This document shows, in pieces, positions 31,795 to 64,000 of a DNA stretch of 64,000 bases (position 1 is the first letter of the stretch; each line of letters opens with the position of its first letter). Origin of the DNA: Taibaiella helva (GTDB lineage: Bacteria; Bacteroidota; Bacteroidia; Chitinophagales; Chitinophagaceae); the NCBI RefSeq assembly GCF_003545695.1, contig NZ_QUZZ01000006.1, forward strand, positions 62,001 through 126,000. The letters run 5' to 3'. The position numbers were made by a program, and so were the translations under genes. Under the pieces are notes generated by a model. That model worked only from the letters and a program-made list of their open reading frames with translations. It did no database searches and was not told the origin of the DNA.

Positions 31795-31866
31795 GCCGCG
31801 TTGGTCAAGGGGTTAAGACGCCTCCCTTTCACGGAGGAATCACGGGTTCGATTCCCGTACGTGGTA
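31795..31866 (+). tRNA. tRNA-Glu (TTC anticodon)
   Basis: 72 nt without encoded CCA. Acceptor arms GCCGCGT and ACGTGGT pair with one terminal G-T, with A as discriminator. The anticodon loop reads CTTTCAC, giving anticodon TTC, with stem CCTCC/GGAGG. The T-arm reads CGGGTTCGATTCCCG. A consensus promoter precedes it, and an IS1-family element begins 45 bp after it. Confidence 0.95.
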
Positions 31867-31980
31867 CAAGCCGGGACTGATGTCCTAAAATTATTGGGCT
31901 GTTCAATTTTGGGTAGTGTACCAGATATGTTGATGAGCGCTGAAATACCAGTAAAATCAACAAATTCTTCGGAAAAACAT

Positions 31981-32018
31981 AAGAAAAGCAGGCAGTATTT
32001 ACACTGCCTGCTTTTCTT
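31981..32018. terminator. 16-bp perfect hairpin inside IS1 left end
   Basis: AAGAAAAGCAGGCAGT pairs perfectly with ACTGCCTGCTTTTCTT around a 6-nt loop. A-runs and T-runs flank the stem, so it could terminate transcription in both directions and shield the transposase from read-through from the tRNA promoter. Confidence 0.7.
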
Positions 32019-32088
32019 TTAAACTAACTTCGCGCCCCTAATGCAGAAAATTACCTCTAAGTGCTCCAGATATGTTGATGGGCAAAAA

Positions 32089-32736
32089 ATGTGCATATAT
32101 TGTAATAATAGATGCGTGAAAAATGGTTCTTCCTACAACAAGCAACGCTATTTATGCAAATCATGTAAACGGAGTTTTGTAGATTCATATAACTATAATG
32201 CCTGTCAGGTTAATACAGATCAAAGAATTAAGGAGTATCTTAAGGAAGGATGCGGCATACGTAGTATTTCCCGCTTGCTAAAAGTTTCAGTGACAACGGT
32301 TTTAAAAAGAATATTGCTGCTAGCAAAAAAAGCATCCCGTCCTATGATTGCGATGGGGAAGGAGTATGAACTTGATGAACTTTGCACCTATGTCCGATAC
32401 AGGGAGAATCAGATATGGGTGGCATACGCCATTAGAAAGGACACCAAAGAGGTTATTGATTTTAATATTGGTCGCAGAACAAATAATACGCTTAGACCTA
32501 TTACGAACACATTAATTCTGTCCAACGCAAAAAAGGTTTACACGGATAAGCTGAAACACTATGGAACCTTGTTACCAAGTAAAATCCACAGTACAAAGAA
32601 AAAAGGTACCAATCATATCGAACGTAAAAACCTAACACTTCGGACGCATCTAAAGCGGCTTTCGAGAAGGACTATCTGCTTTTCCAAAAGCACCACTTTT
32701 TTATCCGCATGTTTGAGAATATATTTTTGGGGGTAA
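32089..32736 (+). CDS. IS1-family transposase (single-frame)
   Basis: 215 residues from ATG 32089; an in-frame ATG at 32041 would add 16 residues without family character. The N-terminal InsA-like zinc finger reads CIYCNNRCVKNGSSYNKQRY...CKSC, followed by a helix-turn-helix (GCGIRSISRLLKVSVTTVLKR). The catalytic domain has Asp in ELDELCTYV, Asp in VYTDKLKHYG and Glu in HIERKNLTLR. It ends ACLRIYFWG as usual in Bacteroidota IS1 transposases. Unlike enterobacterial IS1, the two parts are in one frame, so no frameshifting is needed. It seems intact. Confidence 0.9.
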   Translation: MCIYCNNRCVKNGSSYNKQRYLCKSCKRSFVDSYNYNACQVNTDQRIKEYLKEGCGIRSISRLLKVSVTTVLKRILLLAKKASRPMIAMGKEYELDELCTYVRYRENQIWVAYAIRKDTKEVIDFNIGRRTNNTLRPITNTLILSNAKKVYTDKLKHYGTLLPSKIHSTKKKGTNHIERKNLTLRTHLKRLSRRTICFSKSTTFLSACLRIYFWG

Positions 32737-32800
32737 ACATAAGGTCCAATTTCAGCGCAAATCTCAGATTTGCTGGCATCCGCAAATTTGATACACTACC

Positions 32801-33271
32801 GAGCAAAGGAATAAAGGCTTCGGTATTGAACGCAGCGCCGACGGACAACGATGGAATACCATAGGCTTTGTCCAATCGAAAGCGCCTGATGGCAATAGCT
32901 GCAAAGAGCTGAGCTACCAGAGCTATGATGAAACGCCTTTCGATGGTTTGAATTACTATCGCTTAAAGCAGGCGGATATCGATGGTAAGTATACCTATAG
33001 CCAGATCCGCCAGGTAAGGATCAGCAGGGATGGGCTATCGATATTTATCCCAACCCTGTAAAAGATTGCCTGACGATCGGCGGCCTTGCCGGCAATGAGA
33101 CCATCAGTGTCTATGATGCTACCGGAAGAAAAGTGAAGACGATCGCTGCCGGGGAATCATGCGCTGACGATCGATTGCACCGCAATGGCAGCAGGCGTAT
33201 ACCAGGTACACATTTTTTCGGCAGCAGGCGAAACGGTATCCAGGAAAGTAGTGAAGATAGCTGGATTCTAA
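32801..33271 (+). pseudogene. 3' remnant of a T9SS type A sorted protein
   Basis: Directly after the IS1 right end comes FGIERSADGQRWNTIGFVQ...DGLNYYRLKQADIDGKYTYSQIRQV, the usual stretch before a type A sorting domain. The frame then shifts to IDIYPNPVKDCLTIGGL...ISVYDATGRKVKTI and shifts again to LTIDCTAMAAGVYQVHIFSA...VSRKVVKIAGF, ending at TAA 33269-33271. Two frameshifts and the missing 5' part show that it is dead. The insertion sequence, possibly with an adjacent deletion, removed the front. Confidence 0.85.
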
Positions 33272-33476: not shown

Positions 33477-35525
33477 ATGAATCGCTCAATTTATTTCATT
33501 TTCATTTTGTGCATATGGAATAATGTCCTCCAGGCGCAATACTTACCCATTGATACGAGGCGGTTCACTGATAGTCTTCAAATTGTTTTAGAGTCTGGAA
33601 AACCTGATAGTATAAAAGCCCAGGCAAGCTTTCTATTATCCTATTATTGGACAGATATGGATACGTTGAGGTCCATGGAATACCTTCAAAAGGCTATGCA
33701 TTTGAGTAGAAGTAACAATGCCCTGCAAGCGATTACCCCATACTATGAAGCCTTGTATTATCAGAGATATAATAAAGCCCTTGCCAAATCTATGTACTTA
33801 CGGACAGATAGTCTACTCAGCAGGTATAAGACACAAAAAGCATACGCTTTTCGTTTTTGGACATGGCACGCCTATAGTAAGCTAATCGACAAAGAGGATA
33901 ACGACCAGAGTCGTATGAATATCATCATAAATAAAGCGCTTCCTTTGGCTCAACAAAGTGGTGACAGTGGATTGGTCGGAATTTGCTACGGAAGTATGGC
34001 TATTATTTTTGTTAATAATGCCCGTCTTGAAGAAGCTGAAGAGTACTATAAGAAGGCGATAAATTACTTAAGAAAATCACCATACAAGGCATTCCTTGTG
34101 ACAATGTATTCAAGAGCTGCAAATGCGTACATGATTTACGACAGCAAACTTATTGAAGATAAGATTCAAATGGAGATACTTAGAAAACGGCTACCTCTGA
34201 TTAGGGCATTGCTTGATAGTGCAAGAAGTCTATTAGGCGGGGCTATTCATTCTCCTTCAGCGATTGAATATTTTAGATTCAAAGGAAAATATTTCAGAAT
34301 AAATAAACAATATGATGAAGCACATAAGAGCTTGGACAGCGGGATGGCCATAGCAAGGGCTTTCAACCAGCTTTATGAAATCGAAGCATTAAGTATTTAC
34401 CGGTACCATATTTATTCTGCACAAGGTCAGTACAAAAAAGCCAAAACTCTGTTGCTTCATATTATTGATCACCCAGTCATCGCTTACAAAGGAAATAAGT
34501 TAGGATATTATTACGAATTGGCATTGACCTTTGCCAGGTTGGGTGATTATAAAAATGCATATGAATGGTCAGATAAAACACTGCAAATGCGAGACAGCGT
34601 TTATTTTTCTCATGAGCGATCTGCTATAGACGAGATGGAACTGAAATACCAAACAGTGGAGAAAGAAAGGATGATCACCAAATTACAGTTAGATAAAGCA
34701 CAGGCAACGCTAAAAAGCAGAACAGCTTACCTGTATAGTGTATTGCTTGCTCTTTCCTGCTTCGTATTGTTAGTAATAGTAATTGCCATACTGCAATTAT
34801 ACCTGAAAAATAAAAAACGATCCAAACAACGGTTAAAGAAGGTACAACAAGAGCAGGAACTTAAACTCACACAGGCGTTACTTCAAGGAGAAGAACAAGA
34901 AAGACAGCGTTTAGCACAGGAGCTTCACGACGGATTGGGGAGCATGTTGGCTGGTGTTAAGATAAATTTGTCCGATATAGTTTCATCCGAAGGGAATAGA
35001 TATAATCAAGGGCTCCGTAATGTAATGCAACAACTGGATAATTCGACAAGTGAGCTGCGTCGTATAGCACACAATATGATGCCTACAATGCTGTTACGAT
35101 ACGGTTTGGAAGTATCGTTAAGGGATTTGTGCGCCCTTCTGATACCTAAAACTATATCAATTGACTTACAGTGTCTGAATATTAGCAAAACAATTCCTAT
35201 AAATATACAACTGGTCATATATAGAATAGTACAGGAATTGCTGTCGAACGCGGTCAAACATTCAGACGCCAGGAACATCATGGTACAATGCAGCCAGGAC
35301 AAAGATATTTTCCTGATTACGATAGAAGATGATGGTAGAGGCTTCGTAGTAGATGAAATAGCCTCCAATCACGGTATTGGGATACATAACGTGAAAAGAA
35401 GAGTGGCTTATTTGAATGGAACAATAGAGTTTTTGAAGAGGGACCAACAATCTGGCGTTATTATAAATATTGAACTTCATTTGCAACCTCAAAGTGCAAA
35501 TACCAGCCTACTTTACAATGAATAG
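33477..35525 (+). CDS. TPR sensor histidine kinase, no adjacent regulator
   Basis: 682 residues. A signal peptide (MNRSIYFIFILCIWNNVLQA) leads into TPR-like helices (about 60-400; e.g. LEEAEEYYKKAINYL), then a transmembrane helix (about 419-442), a coiled coil and a HisKA_3 domain with His484 in LAQELHDGLGSML. The HATPase domain has the N-box LLSNAVKHSDARN and DDGRGF. It is built like the kinase at 15.1-17.1 kb, but no response-regulator gene lies next to it. The gene is strikingly AT-rich compared with the left part of the window. It is convergent with the terpene synthase block. Confidence 0.92.
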   Translation: MNRSIYFIFILCIWNNVLQAQYLPIDTRRFTDSLQIVLESGKPDSIKAQASFLLSYYWTDMDTLRSMEYLQKAMHLSRSNNALQAITPYYEALYYQRYNKALAKSMYLRTDSLLSRYKTQKAYAFRFWTWHAYSKLIDKEDNDQSRMNIIINKALPLAQQSGDSGLVGICYGSMAIIFVNNARLEEAEEYYKKAINYLRKSPYKAFLVTMYSRAANAYMIYDSKLIEDKIQMEILRKRLPLIRALLDSARSLLGGAIHSPSAIEYFRFKGKYFRINKQYDEAHKSLDSGMAIARAFNQLYEIEALSIYRYHIYSAQGQYKKAKTLLLHIIDHPVIAYKGNKLGYYYELALTFARLGDYKNAYEWSDKTLQMRDSVYFSHERSAIDEMELKYQTVEKERMITKLQLDKAQATLKSRTAYLYSVLLALSCFVLLVIVIAILQLYLKNKKRSKQRLKKVQQEQELKLTQALLQGEEQERQRLAQELHDGLGSMLAGVKINLSDIVSSEGNRYNQGLRNVMQQLDNSTSELRRIAHNMMPTMLLRYGLEVSLRDLCALLIPKTISIDLQCLNISKTIPINIQLVIYRIVQELLSNAVKHSDARNIMVQCSQDKDIFLITIEDDGRGFVVDEIASNHGIGIHNVKRRVAYLNGTIEFLKRDQQSGVIINIELHLQPQSANTSLLYNE

Positions 35526-35873: not shown

Positions 35874-36869
35874 TTAAATGGTCTGCGGTGTTTGTTCCGG
35901 CCAGGCGAAACCTGCTCCACCATGCCTGTACCTTTCCGTTTCCAGATAAAAAGAATTCACACCCTGAAGCCCAACGCCTGCGTAATGAACGAATTTATCG
36001 ACGTGTTCCTGATATTCACCAAACTCACGATATTCACTATGTAAAGCAACCGCATTGGCCAGCTCTTCATTATGGATGTGTAATGCCTCCGCGCAAGCGT
36101 CCTGCAGGGAAAGATTATACTCTTGCTGCAACACAAAAATCAGATTAAACACCTCTGTCCCCTTCGCCATTTCTTTGGGCAGGGAATGAATATCGTTTTG
36201 CCAGGCAACAACTAAGGTCATATGAGATATCATTTTTTGAACAACAATATGCTCAAAAATATGTTCCGGCAGCACAAGGCCGGATTCAATCTCACCAAAG
36301 ATCAGGTAGGGGCGCATCAGTACCGAATATTCCCGGATGGTTTTGAAAAGAGTTAGCGACGGCGGGCGCTGCGCTATTTTATAAGGATACTCCAATTCAA
36401 TCCCGTACCTGAAGGATTGATAGAAATAAAAAATAAAACGCTCGACCCATATATCGGGCATCAAGGCGCGAAATTCATCCCTGATCAGCGCCATATGATG
36501 ATAGAGCGCGTTCTCCTCCGGCCTTGGCTGAGCGCCTCTGAGAATGTCGGTACAGCGGATCCGTAGCTGCTGAATTTCTTCAAGGGGCAAATCTTCCATC
36601 TGATCGTCCAGAGCTACATATTGCAGCATGAACCTGTTGCATGGAATGGCCTGCTCATAGGTTAAGTCGGGCCACATGCGTGCAGTACACATATGCAGCC
36701 TCATTTTCTTGTAAGTGACACGTTGCTTTTCCGTCAAAAAAGTATAATCATTATCGATCCAGCCATCCATATCCTTTCCCATTTGCTCTGCATGAGGATT
36801 GATAAGGTCGGGCCAGGGGTAAAATCCTTGTGGCAGATAATCTGCACTGTGGTACTGCTCTGGAGTCAT
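35874..36869 (-). CDS. class I terpene synthase (TPS1)
   Basis: 331 residues, the typical length of bacterial one-domain cyclases. The Mg-binding aspartate-rich motif is DDQME (88-92). The pyrophosphate-sensor Arg is 179, exactly 46 residues before the NSE triad NDIHSLPKE (Asn225, Ser229, Glu233). The C-terminal RY pair is 313-314. All catalytic landmarks are present, so it should ionise and cyclise a linear prenyl diphosphate. Substrate length and product cannot be predicted. It is last in a minus-strand row of isoprenoid genes, 48 bp after TPS2, which it resembles over its whole length with most landmarks at identical numbers. Confidence 0.9.
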   Translation of the reverse strand: MTPEQYHSADYLPQGFYPWPDLINPHAEQMGKDMDGWIDNDYTFLTEKQRVTYKKMRLHMCTARMWPDLTYEQAIPCNRFMLQYVALDDQMEDLPLEEIQQLRIRCTDILRGAQPRPEENALYHHMALIRDEFRALMPDIWVERFIFYFYQSFRYGIELEYPYKIAQRPPSLTLFKTIREYSVLMRPYLIFGEIESGLVLPEHIFEHIVVQKMISHMTLVVAWQNDIHSLPKEMAKGTEVFNLIFVLQQEYNLSLQDACAEALHIHNEELANAVALHSEYREFGEYQEHVDKFVHYAGVGLQGVNSFYLETERYRHGGAGFAWPEQTPQTI

Positions 36870-36917
36870 TGTTTTTTCGGATTATGTTTTGGTTTCCATT
36901 GTTGCCTGTTTCACTTA

Positions 36918-37925
36918 TCACTCATCCTTTAATTCTAATGATTTTTCTTCAGGCCAGGCAAACCCCGATCCATCCGGTAAATAACGTGTAGTGTCATTTA
37001 TGTAAAAACTATTTACGCCCTGTATTTGAAGACCCAAACCGAGTATAAATCTATCAACATGCGACTGATATATCCCGAAGTCCGGAAGAACTTTTGCTAA
37101 CTCAGTAAATTCGGCCAGGTCTGCATTATGGATTTTCATAGCTTCTGCTAGCGCATCTTTCAAAGAGAGATTATATTGATGTTGTAAAACAACAATAAGG
37201 TTAGTAACTTCTGTCTCCAGTCTAAGTTCTTTGCTAAGACCCTGAATGTCGTTCTGCCATCCAATAATCCTTGATGCTAAAGTTCTTAACCTCTGTATTA
37301 CCGGATGTTTGTCGAGTAAATCGGGAAAAACGAAATCTGTTTCAATATCTATCATATATAGGTATGGATACATGAGAATTGAATATTCACGATTTATCAG
37401 GTAATAGATCAGTGACATTGCTGTCTTATTTTCCTTATAAGGCGCTTCATCTACGACACCATATCTTGTAACCCGATGGAAGGCATCGACAAATCGTGCT
37501 ACCCATACAGCCGGCATAAAAGCGCGAAATTCCGCACCAATCTTATAGGCCTGTCGGAAGAGCCCATTTTCATTAGATTCTGGTTGGCTTCCATTGAATA
37601 CTTCGACCAGCCTAAGCCGCATTGCATCTATTTCTTCGGCAGTCTTATATTCCAGCTGATCATCAAAAACAGACTGAAAAAGGATGAATCTATGGCATGG
37701 TGTAATACGTTCGAGGCTTGCATAAGGAAGCATGCGTGCTATGCAGCAATGAAGCTTCATTTTTTTATATTTCTTTTGTTGCTTTTCCGTCAAATAGGTA
37801 TAGTCTTCTTCTATCCAGCGAATCTGATCTATCCCCATTTTTTCTGTATGTGGATTAATAAGATCTGGCCATGGATAATAACTTTGTGGTAAATAGTCTG
37901 TCGGATTGAATTCTTGTATTGTCAT
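36918..37925 (-). CDS. class I terpene synthase (TPS2)
   Basis: 335 residues. The aspartate-rich motif is DDQLE (88-92), sensor Arg179, metal triad NDIQGLSKE (Asn225, Gly229, Glu233) and RY pair 314-315. Gly replaces the usual Ser/Thr in the middle of the triad; some cyclases tolerate this by using a water molecule. The N-terminus (DYLPQSYYPWPDLINPHTEKM) is nearly the same as in TPS1, so the two arose by tandem duplication. The gene is more AT-rich than TPS1. It lies 118 bp after idi. Confidence 0.88.
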   Translation of the reverse strand: MTIQEFNPTDYLPQSYYPWPDLINPHTEKMGIDQIRWIEEDYTYLTEKQQKKYKKMKLHCCIARMLPYASLERITPCHRFILFQSVFDDQLEYKTAEEIDAMRLRLVEVFNGSQPESNENGLFRQAYKIGAEFRAFMPAVWVARFVDAFHRVTRYGVVDEAPYKENKTAMSLIYYLINREYSILMYPYLYMIDIETDFVFPDLLDKHPVIQRLRTLASRIIGWQNDIQGLSKELRLETEVTNLIVVLQHQYNLSLKDALAEAMKIHNADLAEFTELAKVLPDFGIYQSHVDRFILGLGLQIQGVNSFYINDTTRYLPDGSGFAWPEEKSLELKDE

Positions 37926-38043
37926 GTCATTTTTTTTTTAAAATTTATGTTTTGGTTTCAATGTTGTCTGTTTAAACACGAACTATTCCGGCTATAAACC
38001 CTATCAAATGCTTTTGCAGCTCTCTACCATATATACAGATGCC

Positions 38044-38577
38044 TTAACAGACTTTCGTTATATCCGTCAAGCATCGTGCTACATTAGGGAAGGCCAATAA
38101 AAACCAGGAAGTAAAAACTTGTGGCGTGCTGGCAACCAAGGATGATATTTCTCCTATCGGACTATACCTGTAGCTATGAACTTCAGCCGGATCGGGCTCG
38201 ATCGTTCCTTCATGAATACCGATAAAAACATGATCGTATTCATGCTCGATCAGGCCATTTTCAAGATGGCTATGATAAGTAAATTCAAAGAGCTTATCCA
38301 GGGGACACTGAAACCCCATTTCTTCCCGGAGCCGGCGATGGGCGGCTGCTTCGATAGCTTCACCTGGGTTGGGATGGCTGCAGCAGGCATTGGTCCACAG
38401 TCCGCCGGAGTGATACTTATCAAAGGCTCTCTGCTGCAATAACATATTGCCTTTACGGTCTACAATAAATACAGAAAATGCGCGGTGTAGATAACCGCGC
38501 TGATGAGCAGCCAGCTTTTCTACAGTACCGATTTCGTTATCTTGTTCATCAACCAGTATAATGTGCGAAGGATTCAT
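38044..38577 (-). CDS. idi: isopentenyl-diphosphate delta-isomerase, type 1
   Basis: 177 residues of Nudix-fold type 1 IDI. The catalytic Cys is 66 in WTNACCSHP (E. coli Cys67), His68 is a metal ligand, the REEMG Nudix element is at 84-88, and the catalytic Glu pair is 111/113 in EHEYDHVF. It interconverts IPP and DMAPP, balancing the two building blocks for the prenyl synthase encoded upstream. It lies between two terpene synthase genes with gaps of 100 and 118 bp. Confidence 0.93.
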   Translation of the reverse strand: MNPSHIILVDEQDNEIGTVEKLAAHQRGYLHRAFSVFIVDRKGNMLLQQRAFDKYHSGGLWTNACCSHPNPGEAIEAAAHRRLREEMGFQCPLDKLFEFTYHSHLENGLIEHEYDHVFIGIHEGTIEPDPAEVHSYRYSPIGEISSLVASTPQVFTSWFLLAFPNVARCLTDITKVC

Positions 38578-38677
38578 GTGGATGATATTTATATTGTTTC
38601 AGGTGGGCAATAATGCCATTATTTAAGGCCATGCCTCATCATATTTCAACTCCAATTGCTACAGGTCTTAACCTTTA

Positions 38678-39676
38678 CTACACTTTAGTCAGCTTATCGC
38701 GAAGCTCAGCTGCACTGGGAAACTCAATCCCATTATAGCGATCCAGCTTGGTCGAAATATTTTTCCAGCCGCTGAGCACCATGCTCATATAGTGCACCCA
38801 ATTGACCACCGCATCCTGCCAGATACCAAAGTCGGGAAGTGAAGCCTGCAGCGTAATAAACTCTTTCAGATCTTCGTTGTGGAGACGCAGATCTTCCAAA
38901 CAGGCTTCCTCTAATGAGATCTGGCGCTCATGCTGAATTACTTTCACGATATTGTAATAAATACTTCCTGTAGCTTCGTCTTTCACTACCGACTGCACTT
39001 CGTTGAAAAAAGTGACCAGGCGACAGGCCAACGCCTGCAGACGGCGGATTACCGGGTGCTCATGGATCTTAGGAGGCAGAACAATCCCGGTTTCCACTTC
39101 CGTCAGCTGAAGAAAGGGATACAGGCAGATAGAATCTTCTCTCAGGGCAATGCATTCTGATATGGTTGGGAATACCTTATTTTTTTTATACTTCAATTCT
39201 GCTTTCAGCCCGTTAAAATACCTGCTGATCATTTGGGTGAAACGGAAGATGGATTCCTGTGGAATGAACTGCAGCAGCTCCGCTCTTAATGAAGCCAGCA
39301 TAGCGCCTAAAGGGATCACTGATTGTTCCGCATTAATCTCGCCATTAAGTATGCCGATCGATTGCGCATGTATATAATCGATGTCATCAGATTCACTTTC
39401 CTCATACAGGTCGTCATTGTACAATGTCCATAGCATCAGCCTGCAGATAGGCTTGAAACGTTCAGCTGAAGCTGTAGGAAACCATTGTGCAGCAATATGC
39501 GCTGTTTTTGTCTTCTTGTACTTTTTACGGAGCTCCGGGTTATGCTCATACAACCAGCGGTATTCCCCATCGATCCACTGCGTTTCGGTAATTTCCTGCA
39601 GCTCGTCCGCATAAGGGTTTTTCAGCGTTGGAAACGGATACTTGAATTGGGTGCAAAGCAGCTCATGTGTGTTCAT
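38678..39676 (-). CDS. class I terpene synthase-like protein with altered NSE motif (TPS3)
   Basis: 332 residues. The landmarks align with TPS1 by number: NDDLYEE places Asp88, Asp89 and Glu92, sensor Arg is 179 and RY is 313-314. The metal triad reads NEVQSVVKDE: Asn225 and Ser229 are kept, but Asp226 is Glu and the metal ligand Glu233 is Asp (with Glu234 next). The N-terminus starts FKYPFPTLKNPYADE rather than the YPWPDLINP of the others. Asp can still bind Mg, so activity is plausible but not assured. It lies between ispH and idi with about 100-bp gaps. Confidence 0.82.
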   Translation of the reverse strand: MNTHELLCTQFKYPFPTLKNPYADELQEITETQWIDGEYRWLYEHNPELRKKYKKTKTAHIAAQWFPTASAERFKPICRLMLWTLYNDDLYEESESDDIDYIHAQSIGILNGEINAEQSVIPLGAMLASLRAELLQFIPQESIFRFTQMISRYFNGLKAELKYKKNKVFPTISECIALREDSICLYPFLQLTEVETGIVLPPKIHEHPVIRRLQALACRLVTFFNEVQSVVKDEATGSIYYNIVKVIQHERQISLEEACLEDLRLHNEDLKEFITLQASLPDFGIWQDAVVNWVHYMSMVLSGWKNISTKLDRYNGIEFPSAAELRDKLTKV

Positions 39677-39777
39677 GGGTACGTTTTTTTATGAACATGA
39701 TATAATTACCTTGAAATGGTTATTGCATGGAACTATCAAGCCCTGGAGAATCCGGGTGTAACAAGATGAAATGTTTC

Positions 39778-41013
39778 TTATGAATAGTCAGTTACGGCAT
39801 CTTCGGCCTTCAATGCAGCCAACGATAAACCATAAAAGGAAAGCAGCCGCTGCAGCACGTTTTCAATCAGAATATCAGGACAGGAAGCGCCGCTGGTCAG
39901 GTGGATCACGACCGGCTCCTTTGCAGGCAAATAGGAAAGCGTCGTTCTTAGCTGCCGGGAATGAATATCCCAGTGCTCGATCTTCTCTGCCGAAATAATG
40001 CGCTCACCGGAAGAAATAAAATAAGTGGGAAGCTTTGCTTCGCACAGCTCAACCAGGTGGCTGGTATTGGAGCTATTATGTCCCCCGACCACGATAGCCA
40101 GGTCGGCATCCAGCGACAACATAGCGATCACTGCTTGTTGGTTGTCGTTCGTTGCATAGCAAAGCGTATCTCTCGTAGACGCGAAATGATTTGCTATTTT
40201 ATCGCCAATGAACCTATAATGTTCCTTCATGGTTTGCAGCAGGAAATCGGCTATCTGCTGGGTGTCGCCGGCCAGCAATGTAGTCTGGTTGACGACCCCG
40301 ATCCTGGCCAGGTCGCGGGCAGCGTCAAAGCCTTCTGAATACCGCCCGCGGAACAAGGTATAGAAATCATCAGCCTGCCTTTTGCCCCTGATAAAACCGG
40401 CCAGCAATATCGCTTCCTTCATATCCCTGATGACCAGGGAAGGCGCCACGCTCCGGCTATGAGAGAACGTGGCTTTTGTTTCTTCATGATCCGGGTTCCC
40501 GTGCACGATTACCGTATAGCCCTTACCGGCGATCTGGGAAACCCTGTTCCATACCTTCTCTACAAAGGGGCATTTGCTTTTATAATAGACCTGCTGTATT
40601 CCCTTATCTCTTAAGATACGCTCTGTCTCCAGCGTAATGCCAAAGGCAGGAACAATGATCACATCTTCCTTTTTTATCTCCTCCCAGGGAATGAGCTGGT
40701 TGCCGGCCGTATCCATAATAAATTGCATCCCCTTTTCGCTCAGAGCCGAATTGACATGCGCATTGTGAATGATCTCGCTCAGCAGATAGATCCTTTTACC
40801 GGGGTTATCATTAAGGGCTGCATAGGCGGTTTCAATAGCATTTTCTACGCCGAAGCAAAAGCCGAAATGGCGGGCCAGGTAAATTTTAATCTTACCGAAA
40901 TCGAGCATTGTCGGCATCATATCCTTCTTTAAGCGGTCCCTCTCCTGCCGCCTACTTTTAACGGCAGCAATGAAACCGCTTTTATAGATCCCGGGAACAT
41001 TAAATGCTCTCAT
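39778..41013 (-). CDS. ispH: 4-hydroxy-3-methylbut-2-enyl diphosphate reductase, long form
   Basis: 411 residues. The three iron-sulfur cluster Cys are 53 (GFCFGV), 148 (KSKCPFV) and 285 (DTLCYATNDNQ), and the active-site HEET segment is at 176-179. It reduces HMBPP to IPP and DMAPP in the last step of the MEP pathway. The long N-terminus and the segments HEETKAT and VVGGHNSSNTSHL resemble plant/cyanobacterial IspH rather than the roughly 280-320-residue E. coli type. The start overlaps the dxs stop by 14 bp, so translation is coupled. Confidence 0.92.
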   Translation of the reverse strand: MRAFNVPGIYKSGFIAAVKSRRQERDRLKKDMMPTMLDFGKIKIYLARHFGFCFGVENAIETAYAALNDNPGKRIYLLSEIIHNAHVNSALSEKGMQFIMDTAGNQLIPWEEIKKEDVIIVPAFGITLETERILRDKGIQQVYYKSKCPFVEKVWNRVSQIAGKGYTVIVHGNPDHEETKATFSHSRSVAPSLVIRDMKEAILLAGFIRGKRQADDFYTLFRGRYSEGFDAARDLARIGVVNQTTLLAGDTQQIADFLLQTMKEHYRFIGDKIANHFASTRDTLCYATNDNQQAVIAMLSLDADLAIVVGGHNSSNTSHLVELCEAKLPTYFISSGERIISAEKIEHWDIHSRQLRTTLSYLPAKEPVVIHLTSGASCPDILIENVLQRLLSFYGLSLAALKAEDAVTDYS

Positions 41014-42946
41014 GTTTTAAGCTTTTTGAGATTACTGCTTTGGGAGATAACATCGAGTTGACCGTCGCCACTATTGCCGCAACATCGTAAGCGCACTCCT
41101 GGAATAACTCCTGGGGCTTTCCATGCTCTATAATACGATCGGGAACACCCAGGATACGGACCTGTGCATTGTATTTGTACTCTGCCATGAATTCAAGTAC
41201 AGCCGTACCCAATCCCCCGATCTTGCTGCCATCCTCAATAGTGATGATCTTACGGTATCTTTTAAAAACGTGGTGCAGCAGCTGCTCATCGATGGGCTTA
41301 ACAAACCTCATATCGAAATGCGCGGGATAAATGCCTTCTTTTTCCAGCAGGTCGCAGGCATCGCTTGCAAAATTTCCGGGATGCCCGAAGGAAAGGATCG
41401 CAATATCAACTCCTTCCCTTATTATCCGCCCCGTTCCTATCTCTACTTGCTCCATAGGCCTCCTCCAATCGGGAAGCACACCTTGCCCCCTCGGATAGCG
41501 GATAATGAAAGGCTGGTCTATATGAGGGAGCTGGGCCGTGTACATCAGATTCCGCAATTCAGCTTCATTCATCGGGGCGCTGATAATAATACCGGGCAGG
41601 CAACGGGAATAGGCGATATCAAAAACACCATGATGCGTGGCGCCATCTTCGCCAACCAGGCCGCCTCTGTCCAGGCAAAAGATCACCGGCAATTTCTGCA
41701 GGACAACATCATGAATGAGCTGGTCGTAGCCTCTTTGCATAAAGGAGGAGTAGATGTTGCAAAATACCTTCATGCCCTGCGTGGCCATTCCTGCCGATAG
41801 CGTTACTGCATGCTGCTCGCAGATACCGACATCGAACGTGCGGTCCGGCATTTGCTCCATCATGAGCTTTAACGACGAGCCGGATAACATAGCCGGCGTA
41901 ACGCCTACTATCTTTTCGTTGGATCCGGCAAGCTCTACGATCGTGTGGCCAAAAACATCCTGGTACTTGGGTGGCTGGGCCGAAACAACGGCCGGCTTAT
42001 GTATCTTGCTGGTTTCCTTGTCGAAGATCCCAGGAAAATGCCATAACGTTTGCTCCTGTTCAGCAGGCTGGTACCCCTTCCCTTTCGTGGTAACCACATG
42101 AAGCAGCTTGGGCCCGGGAATAGACCTCATGCTTTGCAAAAGGTCCGTCAAGGTGAGCACATCATGTCCGTCGACGGGCCCGAAATACCTTAGGTTTAAG
42201 GCTTCGAAGAAGTTGGCCTGCTCCGACATCAGGTTTTTCACCCTGGACTTTGCGCGGCTCAATATGTCCCTTGACGACGCTTCAAAGAAGGGCAGCTGAT
42301 CCAGCGCCCGGGATACTTGCGTTCGCAATTTGTTGTACGTCTTCGATAGCGTGAGCCTGGTAAGGTATGTCGTTAAGGCGCCGACATTGGAATCTATCGA
42401 CATGCGGTTATCGTTGAGGATGATGATCAGGTTCGTATCGGATACGCCTGCATGATTCAGCGCCTCAAAGGCCATTCCCGCGGTCAGGGCGCCATCGCCT
42501 ATTACGGCTATATGCTGCTTGTTAAGCTCGCCCTTCTGACGGGCGGCAATAGCCATGCCCAACGCTGCGGATATGGACGTAGAAGAATGCCCGGTGCCGA
42601 AAGTATCGTATATGCTTTCCGCCCTTCTGGGAAAACCGCTTATCCCTTTGTACTTGCGGTTAGTTTCAAAAAGAGCTCTCCTGCCGGTAAGTATTTTATG
42701 TCCATAAGCCTGGTGGCCTACGTCCCAGACCAATTGATCATAAGGCGTATCCATGGCGTAATGCAGCGCGGTGGTTAATTCTACGGTTCCCAGACTTGCA
42801 CCGAAATGGCCACCGTTCCTGCTTACCGTTTCAATGATGAACGATCTTAATTCCTCGCATACCCGGGGAAGCTGCGAGGGATGTAATTCTCTCAGGTCGG
42901 CAGGAAGCAATATCTGATCCAGTAACGGCGTTTTAAGCTCTTTCAT
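41000..42946 (-). CDS. dxs: 1-deoxy-D-xylulose-5-phosphate synthase
   Basis: 648 residues. Thiamine-diphosphate site GDGALTAGMAFEALNHAG (150-167) with NDN further on, early active-site His in SRNGGHFGASLG, catalytic Glu in DVGICEQHAVTLSAGMA, and HHGVFDIAY complete the family pattern. It condenses pyruvate and glyceraldehyde-3-phosphate, the entry and usual flux-controlling step of the MEP pathway. It overlaps ispH and follows the prenyl synthase gene by 64 bp. Having it in a terpene cluster suggests an extra copy for boosting precursor supply (inference). Confidence 0.95.
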   Translation of the reverse strand: MKELKTPLLDQILLPADLRELHPSQLPRVCEELRSFIIETVSRNGGHFGASLGTVELTTALHYAMDTPYDQLVWDVGHQAYGHKILTGRRALFETNRKYKGISGFPRRAESIYDTFGTGHSSTSISAALGMAIAARQKGELNKQHIAVIGDGALTAGMAFEALNHAGVSDTNLIIILNDNRMSIDSNVGALTTYLTRLTLSKTYNKLRTQVSRALDQLPFFEASSRDILSRAKSRVKNLMSEQANFFEALNLRYFGPVDGHDVLTLTDLLQSMRSIPGPKLLHVVTTKGKGYQPAEQEQTLWHFPGIFDKETSKIHKPAVVSAQPPKYQDVFGHTIVELAGSNEKIVGVTPAMLSGSSLKLMMEQMPDRTFDVGICEQHAVTLSAGMATQGMKVFCNIYSSFMQRGYDQLIHDVVLQKLPVIFCLDRGGLVGEDGATHHGVFDIAYSRCLPGIIISAPMNEAELRNLMYTAQLPHIDQPFIIRYPRGQGVLPDWRRPMEQVEIGTGRIIREGVDIAILSFGHPGNFASDACDLLEKEGIYPAHFDMRFVKPIDEQLLHHVFKRYRKIITIEDGSKIGGLGTAVLEFMAEYKYNAQVRILGVPDRIIEHGKPQELFQECAYDVAAIVATVNSMLSPKAVISKSLKHESI

Positions 42947-43010
42947 AGCTGTACATTTAATAGGGTGAATTTATTGCTGCTAACCTTGCTGAATGTTGAT
43001 CTGCGCTGAT

Positions 43011-44018
43011 TCAGGATTGACGGACAAGTAAAGCGCTGGCCAGCTCCGCCAGCTTTTCTTTTCTATGAACGGGAACATTGATCTTGTCCAGGTTACTGAA
43101 TGCGGTCTCGGTATAACGGGCTATTTCCTCGCTGGCCCACTGATCAATGCCCAGCTCCTTGTACCACGCTATCACAGCATGTACCTTAGCATCGCCGGCA
43201 TATTTCAGGGTCTCTTTCAGCTGTCTTTTTTGCTGCGGGTCCGCGCGCTCAAAGGCTTTGAGCAAAAGCGCCGTTTTCTTGCCGGCTACAATATCGCTCC
43301 CTGCCTGCTTTCCCATTTGAGCGGTATTCCCGAAAGCATCCAGGAAGTCGTCCTGTATCTGAAAAGCGATACCGATGTTTTTTCCGAACGCATACATCTG
43401 CATTTGTTCCTGGTCGCTGGCGGCGCCAATAACAGCGCCCATCTGAGCGGCAGCGCCAAGCAATACCGATGTTTTATAGGTAATCATAGTCAGGTAGCCG
43501 GCATAGCTTACCGTTTCAACTTCCATCTGCTCAAAGTCAATGTCCATCTGCTGTCCTTCGCATACTTTGCAAGCCATATCGGAAAACAAAGCTGTGATCA
43601 GCCCCCGGTACGACAGGGCAGTCTGGTTCAATTGTGCATAAGCATGGATCAGCAACCTGTCACCGGCCAGTATGGCCGTGCTTTCCCCGTACTTTACATG
43701 CAAAGCAGGCTGACCTCTGCGAAGCGCTGAGCGGTCCATGATATCATCATGAATGAGCGTAAAGTTGTGAAAGGACTCCAGGGCATTGGCTACGGTATAG
43801 GCATCGGTACCGATATCGCTAAAAACCTCGTTGGCCATCAGGCATAAGACAGGTCTTATCTGCTTTCCGGAGTATCCGGTAAAATAAGTAATGGCGCCAT
43901 AAAGGCTTTCGGGAGCTGCCGGAAAGGTGATTGCACCTTGCTGGTCCCGATAGAGCTGGTAAGCTTCCGGAAAAGAATGCATAGGTAACCGTTGAAGAAT
44001 AGTAAATAGGTCTTCCAA
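43011..44018 (-). CDS. trans-polyprenyl diphosphate synthase (FPP/GGPP-type)
   Basis: 335 residues. The first aspartate-rich motif is DDIMD (91-95) and the second DDFLD (223-227); GKQIRPVLCLMA near 51-62 binds IPP. Phe86 stands five residues before the first motif and there is no two-residue insertion in it. This rules out the common bacterial type II FPP synthase pattern and fits C15-C20 products, with GGPP favoured on the rules for type I enzymes (inference). It is the first gene of the seven-gene row and supplies substrate for the cyclases. Confidence 0.92.
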   Translation of the reverse strand: MEDLFTILQRLPMHSFPEAYQLYRDQQGAITFPAAPESLYGAITYFTGYSGKQIRPVLCLMANEVFSDIGTDAYTVANALESFHNFTLIHDDIMDRSALRRGQPALHVKYGESTAILAGDRLLIHAYAQLNQTALSYRGLITALFSDMACKVCEGQQMDIDFEQMEVETVSYAGYLTMITYKTSVLLGAAAQMGAVIGAASDQEQMQMYAFGKNIGIAFQIQDDFLDAFGNTAQMGKQAGSDIVAGKKTALLLKAFERADPQQKRQLKETLKYAGDAKVHAVIAWYKELGIDQWASEEIARYTETAFSNLDKINVPVHRKEKLAELASALLVRQS

Positions 44019-44038
44019 AAAAGATAAGAGAGGCCTGC

Positions 44039-44090
44039 AGACATAGCATGGCTATGTCTTGACATGGTGCTTTGGTACATAGCAGTACCA
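44039..44090 (-). promoter_or_regulatory. two inverted repeats upstream of the isoprenoid operon
   Basis: AGACATAGC-ATG-GCTATGTCT (44039-44059) is a 9-bp perfect repeat with a 3-nt centre. TGGTAC-N6-GTACCA (44073-44090) lies just beyond. Both are in the 20-75 bp before the start of the prenyl synthase gene and could be an operator or leader hairpins. Confidence 0.5.
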
Positions 44091-44744
44091 GGCATGGCGT
44101 TTGCAATGCTTACCGGACATAACACCAGGTCCTGGAGTATAGACTATTCCAGGAGCATAATGCCCGGTGCTTTCAGCCGAAAGGCCTTCACCGTTAAGAG
44201 CAGGACATTGATCCGGCCATGCATAGCCACATCTTCCTTATCTTAGAAAATGCGTGAATGGCGGTTTGATCATCGCTCTTACAGGCCGGGAAAGGATGGG
44301 CCGTACATTAAGGATAGTGGGAAATGGAGATGCCAATTTTCGGGTGCATAACGGTATGGTTGGTTTGGTGAGAAACTTTAAATGCTGTTTTATTGGCACC
44401 GCCCCGGATTCATCAGGAAGGCTGGACAAAAATAGTGTATATCGATACTCACTACCGCTAGTAAATACCAGAAATTTTTCAGCATTTTCTACCACTTTTC
44501 GTCCACAAAAACCGGTAAGCCCTAAAGCAGCGATCGGGACAACTCAGGTTGTACTATACAATATTTCAGATAATACAATAAATCACCTTAATTAAGGTTT
44601 AGCCACTTCGCAATTAGCGACCGCATAGTAATGCAATCAGGGGAACCATCTTCCCTCACATTATGAAACGTATCAGCCGACCGGCCTATTTTTTGGCTGA
44701 TCGGCTAAATATATTCACTCTATTTTATCTCAGGCCTAAAAAAT
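44091..44744. other. intergenic region with hairpins, no supported gene
   Basis: Open frames here have no recognisable features. Inverted repeats are present at 44130-44154 (TCCTGGA/TCCAGGA) and 44675-44706 (AGCCGACCGGCC/GGCTGATCGGCT, two mismatches, T-rich loop). Confidence 0.45.
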
Positions 44745-45000
44745 GGCCTACTTTTTACCGATGTCAATACCGACGGCGTATTCAATACCGGTATGGCTTC
44801 CCAACTGACACCATCAGCAAGCGATGTTGAAGATGGTATTGCTTATGTCAAGTTCAGCAATGTCGCTCATTTCTCCAGCTTCGTGTACCTGTCTTCCACC
44901 AGCCGGTGGCTACAGTGCTGCCGGTGACCATGGTTTCCTCGGATGCTTATCGTTCCGGGAACAAAGTAGCGCTGGCATATAACCACGCTGGTGTACTTGC
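44745..45000 (+). pseudogene. fragment of a T9SS type A-like surface protein gene
   Basis: The frame from 44745 reads LLFTDVNTDGVFNTGM and then SDVEDGIAYVKFSNVAHFSSFVYLSS, a stretch common before type A sorting regions. After a frameshift near 44905 it continues LPVTMVSSDAYRSGNKVALAY and then degrades. No sorting domain follows. It sits between TPS4 and the main isoprenoid row. Confidence 0.6.
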
Positions 45001-45202
45001 AATTTTTCAACCCAACCGATGGTATTATCTTCTTCGTCAACGAGAATCACTGAATTTCTATTCATATACTGTCATATTGAACCTATAACATATTTACAGT
45101 TAATAATTAATTATTAACTGATTTTTTTTTAAATGCCCTTAAGTGCTACTTTTTTAGAATGATTGAGCATCTGATATGATTGACACAGGTCTCGTTGCGG
45201 TA

Positions 45203-46213
45203 TTAACGCTCGAACTCTCCTTCTACATAGCCTCCTGGTATATATCGCGTTTTGTCATTTGTATGCCAGGCATAAACACCCGAAACCATAATGCCAAGGT
45301 CCCCTACATACCCGGCTACCAAATCGTTCCAATTGCTGTCGAAATGCGGAAGATGTTGCTGTAACACCAAGAACTCTTGCAAATATCTGTCATGATGTTC
45401 CAGCGCAGCCATATAGGCTTCCTCCAGCGGCATTTTATGTTCATGCTGAAATACCTTTACAATATTCATCGTATCGCCCGGCCTTATAAGTTCTTTGGGC
45501 AATGAAATGAAATCGTTGTGCATTCCGATTAGTAGGGCACAGATAACCTCCATTCGTAGAATATGTGGATGATCCATTATGTCGTCGGGTAATTGGCGAT
45601 AATCCTTTTGTAGGTAAACATATTTACAGAAAGGGATAACACCACTGGTAGCTTCCCTAATCAAAGTGTACACAGCCAGTGGCGGAGGTATGTTAGCGGC
45701 GTTATAGGCCTTCTCTTCCGCATAACCATTGAAGGTATGTATAATAGAATCGACAAACCGTTGGTATATCCGGTCGGGAATCTTACACCGTAACGCATCC
45801 TGTCTTAATACCCACCATTGCCTCAAAAATCCATTAGTCACCGGCTCTTTGGCGTCTTCACCCATCAATAGTGCCTTGATGCGTTTAATAATGTCAAGCA
45901 TTTCCTGTCGAGTGCACCGATCAAAATAATCATCCATCATTGCACCATTAGCTGCATAACTGGCTATTGGATGTAGCTCATCCAAGGAACGTAGAAATGG
46001 TAATCCGCGAGCTGCAAGATCAGTCAAATGATGACTTTTGTGTTTTTCGCGCGCGGCTGCGCTTTGAAACTGATAATCACGATCTATCCAGGCATAATAT
46101 GCTTCTCGTTCTTCACGAAAACCTGGATGAATGAAGTCGGGCCATGGATACGATGGCCGGGGCAAACGTCTCATCTTTGCAAAAAGCTCTTCATGTAAAG
46201 TGGTCGCTGGCAT
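45203..46213 (-). CDS. class I terpene synthase (TPS4)
   Basis: 336 residues. Aspartate-rich motif DDYFD (94-98), sensor Arg186, metal triad HNDFISLPKE (Asn233, Ser237, Glu241) and RY pair 323-324 are all canonical. The body differs from TPS1-3 (N-terminus RRLPRPSYPWPDFIHPGFRE, different spacing), so it is a separate lineage and probably makes a different product. It stands 1.2 kb upstream of the main row, in the same direction, separated by a pseudogene fragment; it is likely a separate transcription unit. Confidence 0.9.
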   Translation of the reverse strand: MPATTLHEELFAKMRRLPRPSYPWPDFIHPGFREEREAYYAWIDRDYQFQSAAAREKHKSHHLTDLAARGLPFLRSLDELHPIASYAANGAMMDDYFDRCTRQEMLDIIKRIKALLMGEDAKEPVTNGFLRQWWVLRQDALRCKIPDRIYQRFVDSIIHTFNGYAEEKAYNAANIPPPLAVYTLIREATSGVIPFCKYVYLQKDYRQLPDDIMDHPHILRMEVICALLIGMHNDFISLPKELIRPGDTMNIVKVFQHEHKMPLEEAYMAALEHHDRYLQEFLVLQQHLPHFDSNWNDLVAGYVGDLGIMVSGVYAWHTNDKTRYIPGGYVEGEFER

Positions 46214-47264: not shown

Positions 47265-47445
47265 TGATACAGTTTGATTAATTTTGTAATAGTTTGAATT
47301 GCTCCGGCAATTTGAGCCAAATGCCTAAGCTCTTTCAAAGTCTTTCAAATAACTTCCAGGTGATTCGGTTACCTTATCCGGTTACCTAGATATTGGACAT
47401 TTCTGAATGCCGCGCCAGTGGCGCTTTCCAAGGGATAGGTTCGAG

Positions 47446-47519
47446 TCCCAGCGGAATCACGAAAGCCACTCCTTAGAGTGGCTTTTTTCGTTTAAAAATC
47501 CCGTTCTTTATGCTGAATT
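47446..47519 (+). repeat. direct repeat copy 1: tRNA-3'-end-like sequence plus terminator
   Basis: TCCCAGCGGAATCAC is preceded by GGTTCGAG (T-loop-like) and followed by a strong terminator at 47462-47488 (AAGCCACT/AGTGGCTT, then T6). The first 59 bp recur almost unchanged at 48686. No complete tRNA can be folded from the upstream DNA. Confidence 0.7.
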
Positions 47520-63011: not shown

Positions 63012-64000
63012 ATGAAAAAGCTCCTCAACATTGCTATCGGTTACCGAAGAATTAGCGGTAAAGATCAATCTAAGTACTCCTTAGCGCATCAGGAAGAAGC
63101 AATCAGGAACTACTGCAATCAAAATGGATTACTGCTATCGGCAATTTTTACCGATAACGGAGAAAGCAGCGGCACCTTCGATCGACCTAATTATAAAGCT
63201 TTGGAGCGCTTTATGAAGAAGCACACAGGTAAGGTACAGTATCTTATTGTAATGAGTCATGATCGGTTTAGTCGAAATCTTGCAGAAGCTTTAATGAAGA
63301 TAGAAGATTTACAAAGCAGTTTCCAGATCAAGGTTTTGGCTACCAATGAAGATATCAATATTGATGTTTACGATCCTCTTGTATTTGTGCAAAGGGCCTT
63401 TTCATACCTGATGGCCAATCAGGAACTTTTACAGATACGGAAAAGGGCAAAAGAAAGCATCCATTATGCACGGCTTTCCGGCCGTTATGTGAACAATGCT
63501 CCTTTTGGTTATATAAACGGACGCGACAGGCACAATAAAGGAATTTTAATTGTGGATGAAGAAAAAGCTGAAGTAATCCGTATTATTTACAAATGGTTTT
63601 TAGAAGGCTGGTCAATAAAGGAAATACAATACTATGCAAGACGAAATGGCCTGAAAAACTCCGGGCATAGCACGATCCAGAGAATACTATCAAACTGTAC
63701 CTATGCTGGCCTGATTAAGATATCTTCCCAATCAGGACCTGCAAAGTATGTAAGAGGTATTCATCAACCTATAATCAGGGAATCTGATTTTTGGTTGGCA
63801 CAAGAAAAGAAAGGCTCCCACAAGCCATCTAAATCACAACCGGGAGAGCTATTCCCTTTACGTGGGGTTCTAAAATGTTGGTGTGGTAAAAGCATGACCG
63901 CCGGCTATTCAAAAGGGAAAAAGAAGTATTATCCCTATTACCGTTGTATAGAACATACGGGAACAAACATCCCTGCTGATAAGCTTCACGCTGAATTCAA
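63012..64000 (+). CDS. large serine recombinase, 3' end outside window
   Basis: 329 codons are visible from ATG 63012 and no stop is reached. The resolvase domain begins MKKLLNIAIGYRRISGKDQ with the nucleophile Ser15, and continues MSHDRFSRNLAEALMKIE. The recombinase domain follows (GYINGRDRHNKGILIVDEEKAEVIRIIYKWF), then the zinc ribbon starts (LKCWCGKSMTAGY...YYRC). These enzymes integrate or excise phages and mobile elements at att sites. Its position just after a repeat at 62650 suggests that it mobilises the neighbouring DNA (inference). Confidence 0.9.
   Translation, partial: MKKLLNIAIGYRRISGKDQSKYSLAHQEEAIRNYCNQNGLLLSAIFTDNGESSGTFDRPNYKALERFMKKHTGKVQYLIVMSHDRFSRNLAEALMKIEDLQSSFQIKVLATNEDINIDVYDPLVFVQRAFSYLMANQELLQIRKRAKESIHYARLSGRYVNNAPFGYINGRDRHNKGILIVDEEKAEVIRIIYKWFLEGWSIKEIQYYARRNGLKNSGHSTIQRILSNCTYAGLIKISSQSGPAKYVRGIHQPIIRESDFWLAQEKKGSHKPSKSQPGELFPLRGVLKCWCGKSMTAGYSKGKKKYYPYYRCIEHTGTNIPADKLHAEF

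Follow-up and report, generated by a model that had tools for sequence, protein, structure and literature searches.

Eight genes on one strand of the window

Analysis of a 64,000-nucleotide stretch of Taibaiella helva DNA (contig NZ_QUZZ01000006.1, positions 62,001 to 126,000; hereafter the window, in whose positions coordinates are given unless another locus is named) revealed eight genes between 35,874 and 46,213, all on the same strand and all with open frames. They encode four class I terpene synthases (TS1 to TS4), a prenyl diphosphate synthase (PPS), and the products of dxs, ispH, and idi. This gene content, claimed in a preliminary description of the DNA, was confirmed by the open frames and by Pfam and NCBIfam profiles. 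The genes, with one gene remnant, are as follows in transcript order.

45203..46213, minus strand: TS4, class I terpene synthase, possibly wanjudiene/polytrichastrene type (PF19086; NSE motif NDFISLPKE; DDYFD)
44976..45065, minus strand: idi remnant, the first 30 codons only of a second idi (tblastn with the intact idi, 67% identity, E value of 1e-10)
43011..43982, minus strand: PPS, probable geranylgeranyl diphosphate (GGPP) synthase (PF00348; F-T pair ahead of the first aspartate-rich motif; GGPP synthases among the PDB matches)
41000..42946, minus strand: dxs, cluster-type second copy (TIGR00204, 743 bits; other copy on C33; cluster clade 100/100)
39778..41013, minus strand: ispH, cluster-type second copy, overlapping dxs by 14 bp (NF009911, TIGR00216; other copy on C6)
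38678..39676, minus strand: TS3, chryseojoostene-synthase type by motif and residue matches, with the altered NSE motif NEVQSVVKD (structure model, pLDDT 90.4)
38044..38577, minus strand: idi, type 1 isopentenyl diphosphate isomerase (NF002995, 172 bits; TIGR02150, 127.5 bits; single match in the genome)
36918..37925, minus strand: TS2, class I terpene synthase, NSE motif with Ser replaced by Gly, NDIQGLSKE (PF19086; 90% protein identity to Dyadobacter jiangsuensis)
35874..36869, minus strand: TS1, class I terpene synthase, which in relatives is the partner most often seen downstream of TS3 (PF19086; at most 91% identity to Chryseobacterium)

All four synthases matched PF19086 at 91 to 107 bits (gathering cutoff, 23.7). 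Curated cutoffs were exceeded by idi (NF002995 and TIGR02150), ispH (NF009911 and TIGR00216), and dxs (TIGR00204); PPS matched Pfam PF00348 and scored below every NCBIfam cutoff. TS1, TS2, and TS4 were 28 to 33% identical to TS3, and the closest pair, TS1 and TS2, shared 48% identity. At these identities, the four are distinct enzymes and not recent duplicates, in agreement with the preliminary description. Its statement that no P450, methyltransferase, or exporter lies inside the locus also held for the eight genes when they were compared with the Pfam and NCBIfam profiles.

The seven genes from PPS to TS1 form a compact row, with distances of 64 bp (PPS-dxs), −14 bp (dxs-ispH, an overlap), 101 bp (ispH-TS3), 100 bp (TS3-idi), 118 bp (idi-TS2), and 48 bp (TS2-TS1). 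The overlap and the other gaps of 48 to 118 bp were therefore as first described; the start of PPS was not, as it probably lies at an ATG at 43,982 and not at the TTG at 44,018, which leaves a frame 36 bp shorter. The short gaps and the 14-bp overlap are the extent of the hints at co-transcription. A stretch of 1,184 bp lies between TS4 and the row and contains the idi remnant, which is a sign of rearrangement and suggests the duplication or swap of a TS-idi unit.

Copy number of the supply genes

The T. helva genome (4.82 Mb, 34 contigs) contains two copies of dxs above the cutoff, one on C33 and one in the cluster (65% identity), and two copies of ispH, one on C6 and one in the cluster (54% identity). 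Of its three polyprenyl synthases, two are 45% and 30% identical to the cluster PPS. A search with the type 1 model gave one match for idi. Cluster dxs and ispH appear intact when set beside the other copies. The preliminary description had allowed that the genes might be simply housekeeping if no other dxs and ispH existed in the genome; a housekeeping block of the methylerythritol phosphate (MEP) pathway was ruled out, because second copies of dxs, ispH, and PPS exist.

Of 394 family genomes, 370 contained a match to the cluster ispH at an E value of 1e-60, and this genome was the only one to have two. A second dxs is by itself unremarkable, since three of the 13 other family genomes that were searched (G001, G174, and G096) possess one of another type (52 to 55% identical). 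When 395 genomes from across the phylum were compared with the cluster dxs protein, the best score of any other dxs was 988 bits, and none exceeded 1,000; the homologues in the Parapedobacter and Dyadobacter arrays described below scored 1,111 and 1,170 bits.

Related arrays in other Bacteroidota

Comparison of the cyclases and gene order with Bacteroidota genomes, proposed in the preliminary description, yielded 48 related loci in named genomes, two of them with a similar supply set. These loci were found with TS1 or TS2 as the query, which biases the association of TS3 with TS1 upward, and clade labels denote the best match at 50% identity or more. TS1 was 91% identical to its counterpart in Chryseobacterium lathyri and 89% identical to those in Pedobacter caeni, Flavobacterium cerinum, and a Chitinophaga metagenome-assembled genome (MAG).

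The two loci with a similar supply set belong to other orders. Parapedobacter tibetensis (Sphingobacteriales) carries six synthases in the order PPS-dxs-ispH-TS-dxr-TS3-TS-TS4-TS1-TS2-like. In Dyadobacter jiangsuensis (Cytophagales), the order is TS3-ispG-dxs-ispH-PPS-idi-TS2, and the opposite strand has a TS4-like gene at a distance of approximately 19 kb. The dxr of the former and the ispG of the latter are full length. dxs and ispH overlap by 14 bp in both the window and Parapedobacter and by 32 bp in Dyadobacter, and TS2 with its upstream region shares 89.9% DNA identity with D. jiangsuensis over 1,094 bp. Single supply-type genes were seen in F. cerinum (L159; on the opposite strand, a prenyl synthase with 40% identity) and C. 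defluvii (L181; an idi-like frame). A dxs match in L167 was too weak to count (28% identity).

TS3 accompanied TS1 in 38 of 43 TS1 loci in this upwardly biased sample, and both were present in 27 of 33 Chryseobacterium loci. The Chryseobacterium arrays resemble that of the window in that TS3 leads and more synthases may come after it on the same strand; they differ in having no nearby dxs or ispH homologue at relevant identity. PF02401 (ispH) was not found in the three Chryseobacterium genomes searched, which would fit use of the mevalonate route. Two arrays, L188 (C. jejuense) and L187 (C. panacisoli), reach seven and eight synthase frames, respectively: TS3 is followed by six or seven more in one row, some of them broken.

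Within the family, a synthase-profile match at an E value of 1e-10 was obtained in 19 of 394 genomes, including that of the window. We surveyed 28 stretches of 20 kb from 15 of the 18 other synthase-positive genomes (G256, G298, and G350 were left out). The TS3-TS1 tandem occurred in G085 and G228, a TS4 relative stood alone in G228 and G002, and idi lay beside a more distant synthase in five stretches.

Shared ancestry of the cluster dxs and ispH

Maximum-likelihood trees were built from 24 dxs and 36 ispH sequences; the short ispH that is Parapedobacter's own (286 residues, compared with 411 for its cluster copy) was left out of the ispH tree. The three cluster dxs (window, Parapedobacter, and Dyadobacter) formed one clade (100/100) apart from the other copies of their hosts. 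The three cluster ispH likewise formed one clade (100/100), separate from all other ispH in the tree. The dxs cluster clade was nested among copies from the family (wider group 80/95, drawn open), away from the other Parapedobacter and Dyadobacter dxs; Chitinophaga dxs copies also grouped among family members, and on this ground we take the family to be Chitinophagaceae. This monophyly across three orders indicates that the module moved between orders together with the cyclases. As judged from the trees, the dxs and ispH of the cluster are a cluster-specific lineage that travels with the cyclases.

It is unlikely that the synthase array, though genuine, merely lies beside dxs, ispH, idi, and PPS genes that serve general isoprenoid metabolism (menaquinone, undecaprenyl phosphate, and carotenoids) and were placed there by chance or by island assembly. 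Such a view could draw on the single idi match in the genome, on the many related arrays without dxs and ispH, which are the majority, and on GC content, since the higher values of PPS, dxs, and ispH (0.49 to 0.51) than of TS2 (0.39), TS4 (0.44), and TS1, TS3, and idi (0.46) suggest a separate arrival. It is opposed by the presence of other dxs and ispH copies in the genome, by the grouping of the cluster copies with copies inside synthase arrays of two other orders, and by an ispH pair that is unique among the family genomes with a match.

Predicted functions of the synthases and PPS

The DD motif, the Arg sensor, and the RY pair are present in all four synthases, and the NSE motif is canonical in TS1 and TS4. 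Motifs were counted over 160 synthase frames in 76 loci, with six frames shorter than 290 residues excluded. In every one of the 41 members of the TS3 clade, the NSE motif is replaced by N-E-(V/I)-Q-S-x-x-K-D; the variant is thus a subfamily trait, and its occurrence throughout the clade ruled out TS3 as a decayed enzyme. TS3 came first (defined as no same-strand synthase within 3 kb upstream and one downstream) in 38 of the 41 clade loci, stood alone in 2, and was preceded by another synthase in 1. At any distance within the fetched stretch, a synthase lay upstream of TS3 in three loci (Parapedobacter, C. eiseniae DSM, and the window, in which supply genes lie between TS3 and a TS4 situated 5.5 kb upstream).

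According to passages of PMC12535395, chryseojoostene synthase (CjCS) of Chryseobacterium joostei was mutated at I66, M86, L90, I188, C189, L190, and D238, the last being an unusual residue in place of Glu. The window TS3 is identical to CjCS at all seven positions, including the Asp for Glu in the NSE triad. All seven residues were found in 34 of the 41 clade members, and six in the remaining 7 (I188L); the 113 non-TS3 synthases had at most four. Leu at 188 marks the Chitinophaga-type TS3, which, to judge from the published I188L variant, would yield more chryseojoostene E. Numbering was identical to that of CjCS in 17 of the 41 members with the chosen start codons. Because of this agreement across the clade, TS3 is very probably an orthologue of CjCS, a likeness based on reported residues and not on the whole sequence; it differs from CjCS in standing in a row with supply genes.

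For TS4, the reference residues were those reported in parts of PMC8518897 and PMC7383580 for polytrichastrene synthase (CpPS) and wanjudiene synthase (CwWS), namely I66, A87, G90, A91, A/V192, and M308. The window TS4 has L66, A87, G90, A91, V192, and I308, equal to CpPS in three of six, so that the residue test is weak for this protein. It differs from CpPS, with which it was compared by reported residues only, at L66 and I308, and it resembles CwWS in that V191 of the latter corresponds to its V192. Of its clade relatives, four matched CpPS at five of six residues, one at three, and one truncated frame at two. The five residues I66, A87, G90, A91, and M308 occur at offset 0 in G228 and the Chitinophaga MAG and at offsets 3 and 2 in Parapedobacter and Dyadobacter, respectively. 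With the window TS4 at three of six, the assignment rests on these relatives, and TS4 may be of the wanjudiene/polytrichastrene type. No characterized match was found for TS1 or TS2.

PPS has an F-T pair before its first aspartate-rich motif, which we take to be a feature of archaeal GGPP synthases, and its predicted product is most probably GGPP. An improbable alternative is a sesquiterpene cluster, in which PPS makes farnesyl diphosphate (FPP) for four sesquiterpene synthases. By sequence, the best solved relatives of TS1, TS3, and TS4 are indeed sesquiterpene synthases such as T-muurolol synthase, which is also the closest fold of TS3: the TS3 model (predicted local distance difference test [pLDDT] score, 90.4; predicted template modeling [pTM] score, 0.89) has a class I fold, and its top PDB match is T-muurolol synthase (template modeling [TM] scores, 0.84/0.90). 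The F-T pair of PPS argues for GGPP instead. The residues of the TS3 clade, moreover, are those of CjCS, which in passages of PMC12535395 converts GGPP and turns geranyl diphosphate (GPP) and FPP mostly into acyclic products, and the TS4 relatives match polytrichastrene synthase as reported in part of PMC8518897.

Genomic island context

The genomic island that carries the locus lies between tRNA-Glu and tRNA-His and has the following features in the window.

31795..31867, plus strand: tRNA-Glu, left island border (ARAGORN; homology to the genus-mate stops here)
31908..32805 (ends by eye), plus strand: IS1-family insertion sequence (IS) element adjoining the border, with a transposase frame at 32041-32736 (PF03400)
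63012..64000, running past the window to 64421, plus strand: large serine recombinase on the right side of the island (PF00239, PF07508, PF13408)

Besides the IS element, the left border holds fragmentary coding sequence. GC content is approximately 0.52 on both flanks, ranges from 0.35 to 0.51 (1-kb windows) from tRNA-Glu to approximately 65 kb, and has recovered by approximately 70 kb, giving a low-GC island of approximately 33 to 37 kb. The main flank blocks aligned with the nearest genus-mate (G001) at 75 to 84% DNA identity, on the left until the end of tRNA-Glu and on the right from tRNA-His (flank matches on C30 up to 93,870 and from 131,009). Between the two tRNA genes (37 kb here and 36 kb in G001), no match of at least 100 bp was found at an E value of 1e-8. 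For the other two genus-mates, the right flank alone aligned in the stretches fetched. None of the three other genomes of the genus had a synthase-profile match.

The last 24 bases of tRNA-Glu occur once in the contig at up to four mismatches. At 47,438-47,486, a fragment resembling a tRNA 3' end (47,438-47,460) precedes a strong terminator-like hairpin. The contig contained no other match to the fragment within four mismatches, and the fragment is possibly the scar of an earlier insertion. Across the array loci, a tRNA lay within 1 kb in 6 of 47; the expected number, derived from other positions of these loci (43 of them usable for the control), was 1.3. Three of these six have tRNA-Phe, apparently a single hotspot, and the association of arrays with tRNA genes is only suggestive. 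The window array, 4 kb from tRNA-Glu, counts as not near under the 1-kb criterion.

Individual loci showed several arrangements with tRNA genes. In Chryseobacterium jejuense CC143 (L156, 8522-11177), identical 74-bp tRNA-Phe copies lie on either side of a TS3-TS1 pair. In L157, four identical tRNA-Met copies in tandem lie 73 bp from a TS3-TS1 pair. In the Chitinophaga MAG (L148), a tRNA-Glu (12873-12945) that is 98.6% identical to the one at the island border lies 386 bp from the end of a TS3-TS1-TS4 array.

Neighbors common to at least three groups were dxs, prenyl synthase, ispH, idi, and six further groups, named from sequence and partly from profiles: two kinase-type groups (one near 33,477), one ABC (ATP-binding cassette) type, one SDR (short-chain dehydrogenase/reductase) type, one regulator-like group, and one of unclear nature. 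A tetratricopeptide repeat (TPR) histidine kinase at 33477-35525 adjoins the window array; similar proteins lie near Chryseobacterium and Chitinophaga-type arrays, perhaps by chance. The same island encodes, at 52875-61577, a 2,900-residue protein of the GH94/glucoamylase type by Pfam matches, which presumably resembles cyclic beta-glucan synthases.

Proposed role of the locus

We consider it likely that the locus is a mobile, self-supplied diterpene synthase array that makes hydrocarbons or simple alcohols. In this view, the class I terpene synthases would have been acquired horizontally, as an array that brings its own supply module, the purpose of which would be flux. The extra dxs and ispH would increase flow through the first and final steps of the MEP pathway, idi would set the ratio of isopentenyl diphosphate (IPP) to dimethylallyl diphosphate (DMAPP), and PPS would make GGPP. 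From this common substrate, TS1 to TS4, whose genes may be co-transcribed with the supply genes, would each form a different diterpene hydrocarbon or simple alcohol, which would leave unmodified; TS3 would give chryseojoostene-type products and, less surely, TS4 wanjudiene/polytrichastrene-type products. The preliminary description had likewise read the locus as a self-supplied cluster, and this reading, in which enzyme activity is predicted, is supported by the additional copies of dxs, ispH, and PPS and by the separate clades of the cluster dxs and ispH.

Several observations weigh against it. Just 2 of the 48 named loci have dxs and ispH (67 to 77% identical), and the 28 fetched family stretches gave no match to dxs, ispH, or prenyl synthase; the module is therefore not required. 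The eight-gene set contains neither dxr nor ispG. No direct repeat was found to mark both island ends, the left border and the right part sharing short matches only. The gap between TS4 and PPS, with its idi remnant, speaks against a single operon and may signal decay. Two synthases have an unusual NSE motif, with S to G in TS2 and D to E and E to D in TS3. The three of six CpPS residues found in TS4 were also reached, at the best offset, by 38 of 153 non-TS4 synthases, none of which scored higher. Published data on relatives point the same way, as far as the parts of the reports at hand go: no diterpenes were found in the headspace of C. joostei (PMC12535395), several enzymes of Chitinophaga japonensis and D. 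silviterrae had no detected products, with the exception of CjWS, which gave wanju-2,5-diene (PMC12723471), and a C. vrystaatense synthase gave no product, while two other Chryseobacterium enzymes, their clades not mapped, gave unidentified diterpenes (PMC7192455).

Some of these features would also be expected of decaying, silent island cargo with synthases that are unexpressed or partly inactive, which we regard as quite unlikely. The idi remnant, the left border with its IS element and coding fragments, the altered NSE motifs of TS2 and TS3, the lack of a Bacteroidetes-type promoter match on the minus strand from 36 to 47 kb, and the broken synthase frames in some relatives' arrays would fit such decay. 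Neither promoter nor terminator scans yielded a usable signal. All eight frames are open, however, and the TS3 variant is shared by the whole clade. A terpene synthase was also detected in the proteome of C. herbae, the relevant part of the report not stating which one (PMC10459008). The C. herbae array (L150, NODE_2 532,602-553,576) appears to lie inside antiSMASH region 2.2 (495,527-554,653) as given in part of that source, if the region number means NODE_2.

Beyond the window, we tentatively advance a wider reading of the mobile diterpene array, to which we give somewhat less than an even chance. The Bacteroidota may share a phylum-wide, mobile, combinatorial diterpene cassette with TS3, of the CjCS type and with its fixed NSE variant, as a near-constant leader and changing cyclases behind it. 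Some hosts that use the MEP pathway would have captured the specialized dxs-ispH lineage along with a varying set of idi, dxr, ispG, and GGPP synthase genes, so that the island would bring both cyclases and flux. In this reading, the repeated placement of TS1 after TS3 hints that these two enzymes act jointly.

Relation to known systems and significance

Extra precursor genes or a GGPP synthase stand beside the cyclase in hopanoid and platensimycin-type Streptomyces clusters, which are single-scaffold pathways with tailoring enzymes. In contrast, the arrays described here hold several cyclases, no tailoring enzyme was seen in them, and the supply set varies between hosts. Terpene clusters with precursor genes are thus known in kind; the modular, mobile, multi-cyclase form is new. 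A literature search that left subscription journals and supplements outside its range turned up no description of a Bacteroidota array in which terpene synthases are linked to MEP genes.

The supply module of the array is a natural parallel to the boosting of Escherichia coli with idi, dxr, and dxs plus a GGPP synthase, as described in part of PMC9814573. The locus points to a substrate (GGPP) and, for TS3, to a product class, both open to testing, and it supplies ready variants of MEP enzymes that may have been selected for high flux. Diterpene synthases of Chryseobacterium and Chitinophaga are being characterized singly, and one has been described as lying outside any cluster. The locus suggests that these single enzymes are parts of modular arrays, which pass from one order to another and at times carry part of their own precursor pathway.

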